Virus record (IMG/VR): IMGVR_UViG_3300005538_000223
Span: 1-32,215 of that record
Direction: 5' to 3' (one strand)
DNA length: 32,215 nucleotides
DNA from: a virus
Part shown: positions 8,909 to 30,874 of the stretch, one piece after another
Layout of the letters: each line of letters begins with the position of its first letter
Position numbering within the stretch: position 1 is the stretch's first letter
Made by a program: the position numbers and the translations under genes
Notes under the pieces: model-generated
Seen by the model: the letters and a program-made list of their open reading frames with translations, nothing else
Database searches by the model: none
What the model was told of the DNA's origin: nothing

Positions 8909-10861
8909 TTACCTGTTCGCTTTCCGCATCTGAGTCTTGACGTGCTTCGCCACAACGTTCGCGTGCTTTGTGAGCAGCCCTTCGAAACCGGAAGCATCCA
9001 CCGCATGCACCGTGGTGTGAACATGAACATCGCCACCCTTGTTGTTCGTAGTGTTGTTGTTGCGAACGCTGTCGGTTAATTGCTTGCTGACGACCGTCTC
9101 ACCGGGGCTTAGCATTGCTGGCACGGTATCGCCTGAACCCGAACCGGGAACGAGACCGCCGTTAGCGAATGCCATGACGCCTGCAAATGTTGCCGCCGCC
9201 GCAATCGGCCCGAACGGGAAGGGCGCCATGTGAAATGCCTTTGTAGCAGCGCCTTCGGCGTGCATGAGCTTTTCGCGCCCTGTGATCGTCTCCATCTGAA
9301 GAAGGTTGGTAAGTGCGGTCTCCAACATCTGCTTGCCGACCTGCTCGAATGCGGCGACCATGCTCTTTCCTTCGACGATGCTCCTAGCTGCGGTCTTGGC
9401 AATCGCGTCTGCGGTTCTGTTTTCCGCCTGCTGAATAAGCCGCAATTTCTGCTCTTCCGCCGTCTCGGTTATCTTCACTATCTGGTTTTCGTTCTGCTGA
9501 ACGATTTGCTTCTTTTTGTTTTCGAGTTCCTGAATCTTCGCTAGTTCCTTGTCGCCGTATTTCTGAAGGTCCGCAATCTCCTTGTCGAGTGCTCTGGTCT
9601 CAATCTGTGTGCGGTCGTTGGCGGCCTTAATTTCAGCATCCATTACCTGCTTCGCGTTCGACTGGTGCATTACGAGAGCGTGCTTTGCTTCTTGCTCCTG
9701 TGCCGACTGTTTCAACTTCGCCATTGCAATTGATTGCTTGAGTTCTTCGGCTTCGCTCTTTTCTTGGCTTCTGAGAATTTCTTCTGAGACAGCGCGGGTC
9801 GCCGCGATCTGCTCTTCGTCAATTTGCGCGTCGAGATGCGCCGTCTTCTTAGCAGCTTCTTCAGCGGCTAGGAACTTCTTCTTAGTAAATTCGAACTCAG
9901 CATCGAGACGCTTCTTGAGTCCGGTTTGCTGTTCGCGGTAGATTCCTTCTTGGCGCTGCGCTTCTTGGTTAGCATCTTTCTGCACGTCAACTTTCTTCTG
10001 CTTGCCTTCGATGGCGTCGGCGTTGGCATACTCCTGCTGAAGGGCTTGCGCGAGATGCAGTTCTTGCTGAAGCGCTTCAACACGGTCTTTGTGGCCCGTC
10101 TCCTTGCCTGCAAGAGCCTGTTCTTTGCTCAGCGCTGCGGTGACATCGGCAAGGTGCTGCGTAGCGGCTGACGCCACTTCAGCTTTGCTGCCTGTCGAGA
10201 GAAGCAACTCAAAGCTGGTGTTCCATTTGTCTAGGTCTTCTTTGACCTGCTTTGCAGCACTGTTGAACTGACCGCCGAACCAGAAACTGGTCTCGGCTTT
10301 TTCAGCGCCTTCGAATACCTTGTCGCCGAGCTTCGCGAGATTCTCGAACTCCGCAGCCAGATGCTCTAGCGTCACGGCGTCGAGCAGTTTCATCTCGTCG
10401 ATGAGCGCTTTTGCGTGATTCTTTGTGAGGTTGTCGAACTCCACATCTAGTTCGAGCAGTTTCGTCTTCGTGGCTGTCGTGCTCTTCTGAATTGCTCCAT
10501 CGACGGATGCAGATGCGGTGGACAACTCTTGAAGCGCTTCTCTGTGTTTCTCGATGAGTTTTGAGACGATTGCGATTGCCGCTACAACGCCGATGATAGG
10601 AAGCATCGTAGCGAACGCAACACCGATGCCAGGAATTTCCGCGAGTAGCGTTCGCAGCTCTCGTGGAAGATGAATGCCCAGCTCTTCGCCGACTAACATC
10701 ATGGAACCACGAGCTTCGCGCATGGAAAAATCCATCGCGTCGCCAGCTTCGTTGGCCTTCTTGCCAAAATCCTCAAGGCTGTTTCCAGCCCTTCCTAAAT
10801 CAGCGGTGAAGGTCGCCGTGTTCGCGACTAAATCAACGGTTAGTGTCCCTACGACTGGCAT
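8909..10861 (-). CDS. Tail tape measure protein
   Basis: A 650-residue, mostly alpha-helical protein that would set tail length and be ejected with DNA. It starts MPVVGTLTVDLVANTATFTADLGRAG, typical of tape measures, and has a hydrophobic segment near 70-103 (PGIGVAFATMLPIIGVVAAIAIV). Long coiled coil follows from about 250 to 480 (repeated Glu/Lys/Gln/Ala heptads). A second hydrophobic stretch (~550-570) precedes GGLVPGSGSGDTVPAMLSPGETVVSKQL, the common tape-measure C-terminal signature. No peptidase or lysozyme domain was seen. By the usual 0.15 nm per residue, a tail of roughly 100 nm is expected (inference). The ribosome site AAGGAG is 9 bases before ATG, right after the chaperone stop. 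Confidence 0.92.
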   Translation of the reverse strand: MPVVGTLTVDLVANTATFTADLGRAGNSLEDFGKKANEAGDAMDFSMREARGSMMLVGEELGIHLPRELRTLLAEIPGIGVAFATMLPIIGVVAAIAIVSKLIEKHREALQELSTASASVDGAIQKSTTATKTKLLELDVEFDNLTKNHAKALIDEMKLLDAVTLEHLAAEFENLAKLGDKVFEGAEKAETSFWFGGQFNSAAKQVKEDLDKWNTSFELLLSTGSKAEVASAATQHLADVTAALSKEQALAGKETGHKDRVEALQQELHLAQALQQEYANADAIEGKQKKVDVQKDANQEAQRQEGIYREQQTGLKKRLDAEFEFTKKKFLAAEEAAKKTAHLDAQIDEEQIAATRAVSEEILRSQEKSEAEELKQSIAMAKLKQSAQEQEAKHALVMHQSNAKQVMDAEIKAANDRTQIETRALDKEIADLQKYGDKELAKIQELENKKKQIVQQNENQIVKITETAEEQKLRLIQQAENRTADAIAKTAARSIVEGKSMVAAFEQVGKQMLETALTNLLQMETITGREKLMHAEGAATKAFHMAPFPFGPIAAAATFAGVMAFANGGLVPGSGSGDTVPAMLSPGETVVSKQLTDSVRNNNTTNNKGGDVHVHTTVHAVDASGFEGLLTKHANVVAKHVKTQMRKANR

Positions 10862-24000: not shown

Positions 24001-24018
24001 TCCTGTTGCTGTGACGGC
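24001..24018 (-). promoter_or_regulatory. Dispersed start-associated motif, copy f (capsid gene)
   Basis: Minus-strand GCCGTCACA-GCAACA-GGA lies in the 320-base divergent gap between the capsid gene and the plus-strand membrane protein, 113 bases before the capsid ATG. The rest of this gap shows only the palindrome at 24168-24187. Confidence 0.5.
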
Positions 24019-24167
24019 CACTGGAAACGTGGAAGGAAAATTAAGAGAGACTAAGTCAGTGATGGCAAAAGGAGTTACTTCACATCGGACGAGTTACTGT
24101 CGAACGTCAGTTCGGAAGATTTCTAAGAAGATTTTCTTTTTCCGGATTTTTCGAGCGCTGATTGGTG

Positions 24168-24187
24168 CGGTGGTAGAATTGCCACCG
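24168..24187. promoter_or_regulatory. Operator-like palindrome before the membrane protein gene
   Basis: CGGTGG (24168-24173) and CCACCG (24182-24187) are perfect inverted arms around TAGAATTG. The loop contains TAGAAT, a plausible -10 box, 22 bases before the ATG; no good -35 was seen. It resembles an operator covering a promoter. Confidence 0.4.
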
Positions 24188-24208
24188 TCCAAACTGAGGT
24201 GCTCCAGA

Positions 24209-24988
24209 ATGTGGTCGGATATAACGATTGTCGCGGCGATTGCGCTCTGCCAACTTTTTGTTACCGTCTACGCGGTCTGGGTGTCTGTGACTGACCACAA
24301 ATTAAAAATCGCCTTCATCATAGGGGTAGTTGGCGCTATCGGCGTAGTTCTGACGGTGTATGCGGCAATTCGCGCCGGAAGTACGCAGAAGTCGCTTCAA
24401 GCGCAGCTCGACAGGATTCAGCACAACACGGAGCAGCCGCAGCCACCGCCAGTCGTAAATTTTAACCCCCAGATAACCGTTCCGCCGACGCCTTCTCCGA
24501 AACAGCATACTCACGTTGAGTACGAGCCTCAGGTCGTCACCGCAGGGCATGGATTCCCTGACCTGACAATGCACCTGCAACCACAATTAGCTCCGACTGT
24601 GGTGTTCGCGTTTCGCAATTCTGGTGATTTTACGGTACAGCGCCCGTCCGATGCGGGCCTTGTCTTGCTAGTTCCTAACGAGAGAGCGAACTCTGTGTTC
24701 AAAGACCACCAGAAACAATTGAGGTTCTACGGGCCCGGCGGTTCATTGACCGCGCACTCCGTGACAGGTGGATACCACACGGGTCAAGGTGTGCCGCTAA
24801 CTGCGGACGATGTTGTGAAAATAAAAGCAGGCATACTGGCACTTTGTGGAATCGGCGCAATTAGGTGGTCGGATTCCACTGGAAAATACGAAACGCGTTT
24901 CGCTCAGTGCCTTCAAAGCGAACCAGACCACACCGGGTTGAACTGGCACATCATGCAAGAAGACAACGAAGAATACAGACTCAACTGA
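24209..24988 (+). CDS. Two-helix membrane protein, divergent cargo gene
   Basis: A 259-residue protein with no recognised family. Two membrane helices lie at about 5-27 (ITIVAAIALCQLFVTVYAVWVSV) and 33-54 (KIAFIIGVVGAIGVVLTVYAAI), joined by a short loop. A short coil (~58-72), a proline-rich spacer (76-98) and a strand-rich soluble domain (~105-259) follow. Start is ATG at 24209 with GAGG 9 bases upstream; the longer frame back to 24011 is arginine-rich and unconvincing. It is on the plus strand between the capsid and small terminase genes and meets the TerS stop tail to tail, so it is likely a cargo gene expressed from the prophage. A role in superinfection exclusion or other lysogen benefit is only a guess from position and membrane topology. 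Confidence 0.75.
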   Translation: MWSDITIVAAIALCQLFVTVYAVWVSVTDHKLKIAFIIGVVGAIGVVLTVYAAIRAGSTQKSLQAQLDRIQHNTEQPQPPPVVNFNPQITVPPTPSPKQHTHVEYEPQVVTAGHGFPDLTMHLQPQLAPTVVFAFRNSGDFTVQRPSDAGLVLLVPNERANSVFKDHQKQLRFYGPGGSLTAHSVTGGYHTGQGVPLTADDVVKIKAGILALCGIGAIRWSDSTGKYETRFAQCLQSEPDHTGLNWHIMQEDNEEYRLN

Positions 24989-25816: not shown

Positions 25817-25838
25817 ATACTCGGCTTCCTGTGACGGC
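25817..25838 (-). promoter_or_regulatory. Dispersed start-associated motif, copy g (63-residue gene)
   Basis: Minus-strand GCCGTCACA-GGAAGC-CGAGTAT, with GTCACA 31 bases before ATG. Upstream lies AAGCACG three times (25841-25847, 25855-25861, 25862-25868), two of them in tandem. Confidence 0.55.
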
Positions 25839-26077
25839 TTCGTGCTTGGCGTTTCGTGCTTCGTGCTTCGACTGGTACTTGTGGAAACAGCGGCACTGGC
25901 GAGCGCTCAGGCTGGCGCGTTGGCATGTGAACTCAGTCAGATAGGCGGGAATTACAACCACGCTGCCGTAGCGCGGCCAATCGTTAGGGTGCAGGTGTTC
26001 TGGTTGTTATGTGTGCGGTTGTTGTTGTCTTGCATTGCTCTACCGTTTTTGGGGTTTCGTAGTGCTCTATCGCCAGT
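25839..26077. other. Gap without a supported gene
   Basis: Only short open frames are present, for example a 46-residue arginine-rich minus-strand frame at 25786-25926 with no ribosome site. Besides the AAGCACG repeats I see no signal. It may be the leader of the packaging operon. Confidence 0.4.
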
Positions 26078-29944: not shown

Positions 29945-30874
29945 TTATGAGTTCGGGTCGCCTGTTTCAAGCCAGCGTTTCCAGCGGCCATATTGCAGTG
30001 TGTGTAGAGGCGGACTCTGCGTCTCTTCCCAGTCTGAAATCGACTGTCCCAAATACTCAGCCTTCGTAGTACCGCGTTGGCGTAGGTATTCGGGAACGAC
30101 GGTTGCCTCTAACTGAGCGAGCACCGCTCTGCGTTCTTCATCGGTCGGTTGAGCGTGCCTCATCGTTTCAGGCAGACCCGCTTTCTTGTCTGTTACAAAC
30201 GCAATCCACATTTCTTTCTCGACTTTCGCTTGGTTGCGGAGTTTCAGAGGCGCAGCCTCTGAGAAAGAAGTCTGTTCCTTCAAGCTCCTGCCTTCCGGCC
30301 TGCCGTTTTCCGTAGGAAGGCAGGCAGGCTGTTGTAGTGGGACTTTGGTTGTCGCTGCGCTCTGCTCTTGCTCTGCTCTGTTGTTGCTCTGTTGTGGTTC
30401 TGAATCTGTTCTGTTCTGCTCTGCTCTGTTAGTTATCGTTTTGCTATCGCGTTCGCTATCGTTGTCTGATAGCGGATTTGATACGCCCGCTATCGTTTTG
30501 CTACCGCGATTACGATAGGCACGCTGAGCATCGGAGTCGGCGCTACCGCCTAACCGTCCGTTCTCAGCGGCAGCGCGACGAGCGCCGTCTGTGTTTTGAA
30601 TCTCAAAGTCGATGCGCGACTGGCAGTAGCATCCGGCAACGTTTTTCTTGAAGAAACGGTTCAGGACGAAAGCAACGGACTCCTGCTCGTCTTTTGTGAA
30701 CGCTCCAACCATCCTGAAAACTGTCGGAAGTTCTGACGGCAAAGGTCCGCCAACTTTGTAGTACGCCAACATGCAGCACAAATAAGCACCGTGTTGGGCT
30801 TGGGTTAAATCGAGCGTGTCGTTCGTGTAATCGTTCCAGTAAAACGGAAACCATAGGTCTTTATTTCGGCTCAT
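29945..30874 (-). CDS. DUF1376 (YdaU-like) replication-associated protein
   Basis: A 309-residue protein. The N-terminal ~95 residues are a DUF1376 domain: KDLWFPFYWNDYTNDTLDLTQAQHGAYLCCMLAYYKVGGPLP and RFFKKNVAGCYCQSRIDFEI. Members sit next to replication genes in many prophages and may act in origin binding. Residues ~100-215 are a low-complexity Gln/Asn/Ser/Glu/Arg linker (NRAEQNRTDSEPQQSNNRAEQEQ). A C-terminal helical part ends LQYGRWKRWLETGDPNS. The linker DNA contains an iteron-like cluster (30433-30519) and GAGCA-type repeats (about 30355-30430). ATG overlaps the upstream stop (ATGA). Confidence 0.85.
   Translation of the reverse strand: MSRNKDLWFPFYWNDYTNDTLDLTQAQHGAYLCCMLAYYKVGGPLPSELPTVFRMVGAFTKDEQESVAFVLNRFFKKNVAGCYCQSRIDFEIQNTDGARRAAAENGRLGGSADSDAQRAYRNRGSKTIAGVSNPLSDNDSERDSKTITNRAEQNRTDSEPQQSNNRAEQEQSAATTKVPLQQPACLPTENGRPEGRSLKEQTSFSEAAPLKLRNQAKVEKEMWIAFVTDKKAGLPETMRHAQPTDEERRAVLAQLEATVVPEYLRQRGTTKAEYLGQSISDWEETQSPPLHTLQYGRWKRWLETGDPNS
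30433..30519. repeat. Iteron-like cluster, candidate replication origin
   Basis: Seven CGATAGC-like units, in both orientations, lie at about 30433, 30443, 30455, 30469, 30490, 30500 and 30513. One pair, GCTATCG and GATAGCG-type, makes a perfect 7-bp inverted repeat around GTTGTCT. Two longer units share ATCGTTTTGCTA(T/C)CGCG. The position inside a replication-associated gene resembles the lambda origin in gene O. Confidence 0.5.

Follow-up and report, generated by a model that had tools for sequence, protein, structure and literature searches.

Does the gene for a DUF1376 protein also contain the origin from which its phage is replicated? Lambdoid phages (PMC7466680) and SPP1 (PMC6316719) have well-established origins inside their initiator genes, and an earlier note on the DNA analyzed here had read a DUF1376 gene as holding a lambda-like origin. 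The window, by which we mean the whole 32,215-base virus record, carries minus-strand genes for capsid, terminase, portal, and lysozyme (Pfam, PHROGs). A lambda-like origin is still the reading that the sequence comparisons support best, with linker repeats that reflect constraint at the DNA level and that recur in relatives, and we consider it likely that the DUF1376 gene is a phage replication initiator gene containing its own lambda-like origin. The following features enter into this assessment.

29945 to 30874, minus strand: DUF1376 gene (309 amino acids; Pfam PF07120, PHROGs), a candidate replication initiator gene with an embedded origin.
30599 to 30853, minus strand: DUF1376 domain (residues 8-92; Pfam, AlphaFold pLDDT), a predicted winged helix and the presumed DNA-binding part.
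30432 to 30519, minus strand: module I (repeat and family tests), candidate iterons, comprising seven CGATAGC-like units in direct and inverted orientation, spaced by 11-13 bp.
30454 to 30474: perfect inverted pair within module I, CGCTATC (30454-30460) and GATAGCG (30468-30474), found by sequence match.
30434 to 30508: 18-nt direct repeat (repeat search), with copies at 30434-30451 and 30491-30508 that are 94% alike.
About 30343 to 30431, minus strand: module II (TRF, composition, relatives), a CAGAG/CAGAA array in 5-6-nt steps, a candidate unwinding or helicase-loading stretch.

The window protein scores 57.5 bits against PF07120 (E 1.8e-15; curated cut-off 30.1), which makes it a member of DUF1376. 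Several of its seven matching PHROGs families are named 'primosomal protein' (best 1.1e-19), and none of the seven is O-like. The DUF1376 domain is predicted with a pLDDT mostly above 90, and values below 50 are found at residues 133-138, 142-150, and 152-212 (AlphaFold). Weak fold matches of the predicted domain include ORC2, RepA-type, and DnaD winged helices (Z 5-6.4) as well as transcription factors; with Z at most 6.4, such model-based matches are too weak to carry weight, and Foldseek with the predicted structure returned no match at E≤0.001. Searches of viral and genome contigs with the window protein as a single query yielded no relative; relatives emerged from a profile search.

Seven CGATAGC-like units had been proposed at 30433-30519. 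We found seven when allowing up to one mismatch, although the first begins one base earlier: 30432-30438(-), 30443-30449(-), 30455-30461(-), 30467-30473(+), 30489-30495(-), 30500-30506(-), and 30513-30519(+). Three of them are exact copies, their starts are separated by steps of 11, 12, 12, 22, 11, and 13, and a further unit at 30542-30548 lies beyond the range first described. The perfect inverted pair that had also been described is present as listed above. Module I sits about 400 bp inside the gene, at residues 119-148, so that its proposed placement in a disordered linker holds for part of the cluster; the cluster begins where a predicted helix ends (pLDDT). Elsewhere in the window no 87-base stretch has more than four CGATAGC-like units. 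Across 500 synonymous recodings of codons 116-150, the most copies reached by any 7-mer was six, never seven, and in 500 codon-order shuffles of the same codons it was four. The window linker contains 15 inverted 6-mers vs 2.9 expected and 16 direct 7-mer pairs vs 1.5 expected (p 0.005 in both cases).

The CGATAGC unit is translated in two frames (ACG ATA GCG as TIA and AAC GAT AGC as NDS) and also lies on the other strand. With one unit serving two frames and either strand, a protein repeat cannot account for module I, and the suggestion in the earlier note that the linker peptide is shaped by the repeats is borne out. Coverage by repeated 8-mers leads to the same place: within codons 116-175 it extends over 111 nt, compared with 23.4 for synonymous draws and 40.3 after permutation of synonymous codons (0/1000 for each), and in the N and C parts it is not significant against synonymous shuffles. 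The iteron segment of lambda O, a positive control, gives 93 vs 14.0 nt (0/1000), and the ydaU linker of the E. coli Rac prophage gives 106 vs 17.8 nt (0/1000). Codons 1-105 of lambda O are also high (83 vs 21.8, 2/1000), and the coverage test thus falls short of full specificity for the iteron segment. The window holds clustered repeats inside coding sequence beyond what the protein dictates, one of the properties expected of a gene-embedded origin.

Relatives were examined in two sets. The first comprises the best 80 of 553 profile-search loci, ten phage loci, and one of seven further loci; these contain 92 DUF1376 ORFs including that of the window, 86 of which have at least 60 residues after the domain (six short ones were dropped) and 65 of which are non-redundant. 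A held-out set from new scans supplied 106 ORFs, reduced to 56 non-redundant ones after 41 similar and 9 short ORFs were dropped. Redundancy was filtered by shared protein 4-mers; alignment A3 omits 2 of 62 ORFs and alignment A4 omits 1 of 41. Control segments came from neighboring ORFs (280 in the first set and 269 in the held-out set, 549 together).

Mean repeat coverage in the linkers of the first set is 66.0 nt vs 26.5 nt in synonymous sequences (p≤0.05 in 41/65), in N-domains 33.1 vs 20.5 nt (17/65), and in control segments 25.2 vs 19.5 nt (33/280). In the held-out set the same threshold is reached by 36/56 linkers, 30/269 controls, and 8/56 N-domains. Inverted 6-mers average 7.26 per gene vs 2.46 expected in the first set (p≤0.05 in 25/65), and direct 7-mer pairs 12.58 vs 2.23 (38/65). 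Exact 6-mer repeats 11 nt apart occur in 71 of the 121 linkers (41/65 and 30/56; 10.8 expected), a peak that is missing from the controls (20/549 segments), and further excesses are found at 12 nt (53 linkers, 27.1 expected), 23 nt (44, 8.6 expected), 34 nt (21, 4.8 expected), and 35 nt (28, 5.7 expected). Eleven is not a multiple of three, so no protein repeat makes this spacing. The window linker does not belong to these 71, as its neighboring units at 11 bp differ by one base. Across the family, module I consists of phage-specific direct and inverted repeats at 11-12 bp spacing, a phasing that the earlier note did not mention.

The earlier note had called for linker DNA to be compared in related phages, naming relatives that keep the protein and lose the repeats as the outcome that would speak against an origin. 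We found instead that the repeats are kept at the equivalent place, mostly with another sequence. The N-domain nearest to that of the window (L020, 41% identity; the 64 others compared are drawn from the best 80 of 553 loci and the added loci) is followed by a linker with GATAGC three times and a peptide unlike the window's. Repeat excess is absent in some homologues, for example L011, L021, L026, L086, and L097 in the first set and L520 and L522 in the held-out set. By eye, the DUF1376 ORFs of L021, L026, L068, L071, and L520 contain an in-frame HNH-endonuclease-like segment that follows the DUF1376 domain and precedes the repeat array or C-terminal part, a place at which iterons would be expected; in L021, L026, L068, and L520 the repeat test is not significant. 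These segments are possibly nucleases invading at the origin.

N-domain segments had been intended as a control, and their raised coverage may be explained by copies of each gene's own motif there. Exact 6-mer repeats 11 nt apart occur in 17/121 N-domains, with a concentration 30-50 codons ahead of the domain end. Across 97 genes, a gene's own linker motif is found 165 times in the code for its own DNA-binding domain vs 58.8 times with motifs swapped between genes (0/5000); the C part is nearer background (58 vs 41.6, 188/5000). The window N-domain has only one such match. In relatives, a second cluster of the own iteron motif lies within the DNA-binding-domain code, 20-50 codons before the domain end.

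Module I motif likeness tracks N-domain identity (Mantel r 0.279, 0/2000). At aligned sites with the same amino acid, codons are identical at a rate of 0.592 in the linker vs 0.447 in the N-domain, and synonymous conservation is higher in the linker in 49/56 disjoint pairs (Wilcoxon p 3.3e-8). Shared descent can contribute to both the Mantel and the synonymous-conservation results, from which selection is not fully separable.

Module II adjoins module I directly downstream in the direction of the gene and was absent from the features listed in the earlier note. Its TRF rows span 30359-30430, and its gene strand is almost free of T (A42 C22 G22 T3). At 51% A+T the window array is not AT-rich; arrays of relatives have 53% A+T with 4% G. 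One-strand arrays of 5- or 6-nt tandem units (score ≥8), such as (TCACCT)n, are present in 47/65 and 37/56 linkers (84/121), compared with 5/280 and 6/269 controls (11/549) and 1/65 and 2/56 N-domains. Their median start in the first set is 118 nt past the DUF1376 domain, and the order of module I followed by module II is fixed in relatives. The window has the rarer 5-nt form, the usual form being a hexamer, and its position agrees with that of the hexamer arrays. A 14-mer from the window array is found at at least 120 loci, with a DUF1376 ORF in none of the matches listed; these are therefore chance matches. A G-quadruplex reading of module II was set aside, as several groups appear by eye to have no G runs.

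Codon usage within the arrays is close to fixed. Where the hexamers encode (SP)n, serine is TCA in 89/94 codons of the first set and 93/97 of the held-out set, and proline is CCT in 74/93 and 74/105, respectively; elsewhere in first-set loci TCA accounts for 16% of serine codons and CCT for 19% of proline codons. This background was computed over all long open frames and then repeated with non-overlapping ORFs.

The composition of the arrays raises an alternative for module II, which might be a Rho-utilization (rut) site whose RNA halts transcription within the operon. Sites of this kind are C-rich and G-poor, and the coding strand of the relatives' arrays in the first set is indeed 43% C and 4% G; within DUF1376 genes the arrays are moreover always in the sense orientation among the matches listed. 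The window array has as much G as C (22 each), however, and the arrays of other groups, for example (ATACAG)n, and that of the ydaU linker are A-rich. A stop within the initiator gene would also cut its own message. We regard a rut site as unlikely overall; it is a live alternative for the C-rich groups and less so for the window.

Scans from DNA alone returned at least 120 loci each for (TCACCT)3.5 and (CACAAC)3.5. Among the 120 (TCACCT)3.5 matches listed, 38 lie inside a DUF1376 ORF, all of them sense and none antisense. At the remaining 82 the longest ORF is sense in 22 and antisense in 51, and 9 have no 150-aa ORF. Nineteen of the 22 non-DUF1376 sense ORFs among the matches listed were scanned (ten picked by eye at first; three large ORFs were left out), and for 10 of the 19 the PHROGs match is to a replication family: replication initiation, DnaD-like loader, O-like, and replisome organizer. 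Antisense ORFs, of which 40 of 41 were scanned, belong mostly to other families. Sense (TCACCT)n is thereby seen in other replication-family proteins (L222, L224, L242, L247, L254, L272, L279, L283, L287, and L308), several of which also have repeats ahead of the array by eye.

Two other hexamers were set aside. (CACAAC)n was rejected as a specific mark, with DUF1376 at 19 of the 120 matches listed and mostly other proteins at the rest; 60 sense ORFs scanned had PHROGs matches mostly outside replication families. CCACTT was rejected as a clean control hexamer, as it falls within DUF1376 genes at 3/45 loci. QPQPQP arrays at (CACAAC)n loci (e.g., L342, L343, and L373) recur in phrog_28737 (7/60 scanned), a family that looks scaffold-like by eye.

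The genes that follow DUF1376 in relatives bear on a second alternative, in which module I is an operator for transcription of the replication operon, bound by the DUF1376 protein or another regulator, and the origin lies elsewhere. Winged helices are common in regulators, and transcription factors are among the fold matches noted above. Against an operator, the sites lie far inside the gene and are followed in fixed order by a strand-asymmetric module, as in lambda ori and SPP1 oriL, and the neighboring genes of relatives are helicases and loaders: the next gene encodes a DnaB-like helicase family in 9/60 cases, a P-like helicase loader in 6/60, and each of two DnaC-like families in 1/60. No helicase or loader was recognized among the scanned window proteins (Pfam, PHROGs), the record being a fragment. 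That the sites serve solely as an operator seems quite unlikely to us; an origin may regulate too, and the two roles are not mutually exclusive.

A third alternative is neutral, namely that a disordered linker tolerates slippage-derived low-complexity repeats that have no function. Much of the linker is predicted to be disordered, the array resembles a microsatellite, and (CACAAC)n occurs in other phage proteins as well. Slippage, however, predicts neither inverted copies nor the off-frame 11-bp spacing of the 71 genes, neither near-fixed codons in unrelated genes nor a linker whose synonymous sites are better conserved than those of the folded domain, and neither the presence of the linker motif within that folded domain nor the 38 sense and 0 antisense (TCACCT)n matches listed in DUF1376 genes. 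We consider this explanation very unlikely. Recombination hot spots for swapping initiator domains are more improbable still: linkers do connect conserved N-domains with varied C-terminal parts in relatives, but phased, inverted units are unnecessary for this purpose, and repeat sequences differ between phage groups and so offer little shared homology.

Returning to the gene-embedded origin, we infer three things: module I is bound by the N-domain, module II melts or serves in helicase loading, and replication starts at this locus. The predicted N-terminal winged helix would bind module I with about one subunit per helical turn (11-12 bp). The strand-asymmetric module II would then be opened or kept single-stranded for loading of the replicative helicase, and the helicase or loader, often the product of the next gene in relatives, would be placed there. 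The linker peptide may be largely a by-product of these DNA signals. Among the relatives compared, an equivalent hidden layout recurs in distantly related phages.

A more detailed proposal is tentative. DUF1376 phages might share an undescribed origin design, in which an initiator multimer sits on phased sites at 11-12 bp, some of them in the DNA-binding-domain code, each helical turn taking one subunit, and in which a 6-nt one-strand ladder, with CA recurring every 6 nt, is gripped in register in single-stranded form for directional helicase loading. Such a ladder would be a phage analogue of the DnaA-trios.

A comparison with known systems places the locus close to lambda. Lambda ori in gene O has iterons in mid-gene, between the N-terminal DNA-binding and C-terminal parts, followed by an unwinding stretch (PMC7466680), an arrangement that the two modules of the window would match, and its repeats also stand out against synonymous shuffles. 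Lambda differs in having 18-bp iterons at 20-24-bp steps, compared with units of about 7 bp at 11-13-bp steps in the window, and in having an adjacent AT-rich tract in place of a 5-6-nt array; the window protein, with no O-like match, is not a member of the lambda O family. SPP1 oriL likewise has direct repeats within an initiator gene, gene 38; there they are bound by the initiator and adjoin an unwinding element that is AT-rich, and a further origin of SPP1 lies beyond that gene (PMC6316719). In Pseudomonas phage MD8, repeats inside an O-like replication gene are presented as support for a lambda-like mechanism (PMC8508860); its protein is O-like and is not shown to be DUF1376, and the accessible text of that paper contains no family-wide or DNA-level test. 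The window locus would be lambda-ori-like in its working, and the unit size, the 11-12-bp phasing, and the 5-6-nt ladder set it apart.

In the E. coli Rac prophage the DUF1376 gene is ydaU. Its linker repeats are significant, and the gene after it, ydaV, carries the annotation putative ATP-binding protein. The repeat sequences of ydaU (TGTTCAA-like, GATAAA/GATACA) are unlike those of the window. An active Rac origin, oriJ, has been reported (PMC3945230), and an oriJ paper of 2000 is cited in PMC11014345; within the open-access literature we found no source giving the position of oriJ relative to ydaU. The ydaU linker is a concrete candidate for oriJ in E. coli K-12. DUF1376 itself is named in the literature (including PMC5795418), and the titles and abstract openings of the open-access articles searched report no origin in a DUF1376 gene.

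The reading of the locus as an origin would give a candidate function to a family of unknown function and could make the replication start predictable from sequence in many temperate phages and prophages. It would also explain the odd SPSPSP, QPQPQP, and NRAEQ linkers as side effects of signals in the DNA. Should the (TCACCT)n ladder that is common to other replication proteins prove functional, it would bear on how phage origins are opened and helicases loaded.

GC skew has no clear turn at the DUF1376 locus, which in a fragment neither favors nor disfavors an origin. An AT skew of -0.36 to -0.38 at window positions 9001-10500, inside a 650-aa ORF (8909-10861), equals in strength that around the origin candidate. 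A plus-strand open frame of 325 aa without a PHROGs match lies at 24011-24988 amid otherwise minus-strand genes, and a tandem array of GCTTCGT occupies 25837-25870 (4.9 copies, 77% matches).
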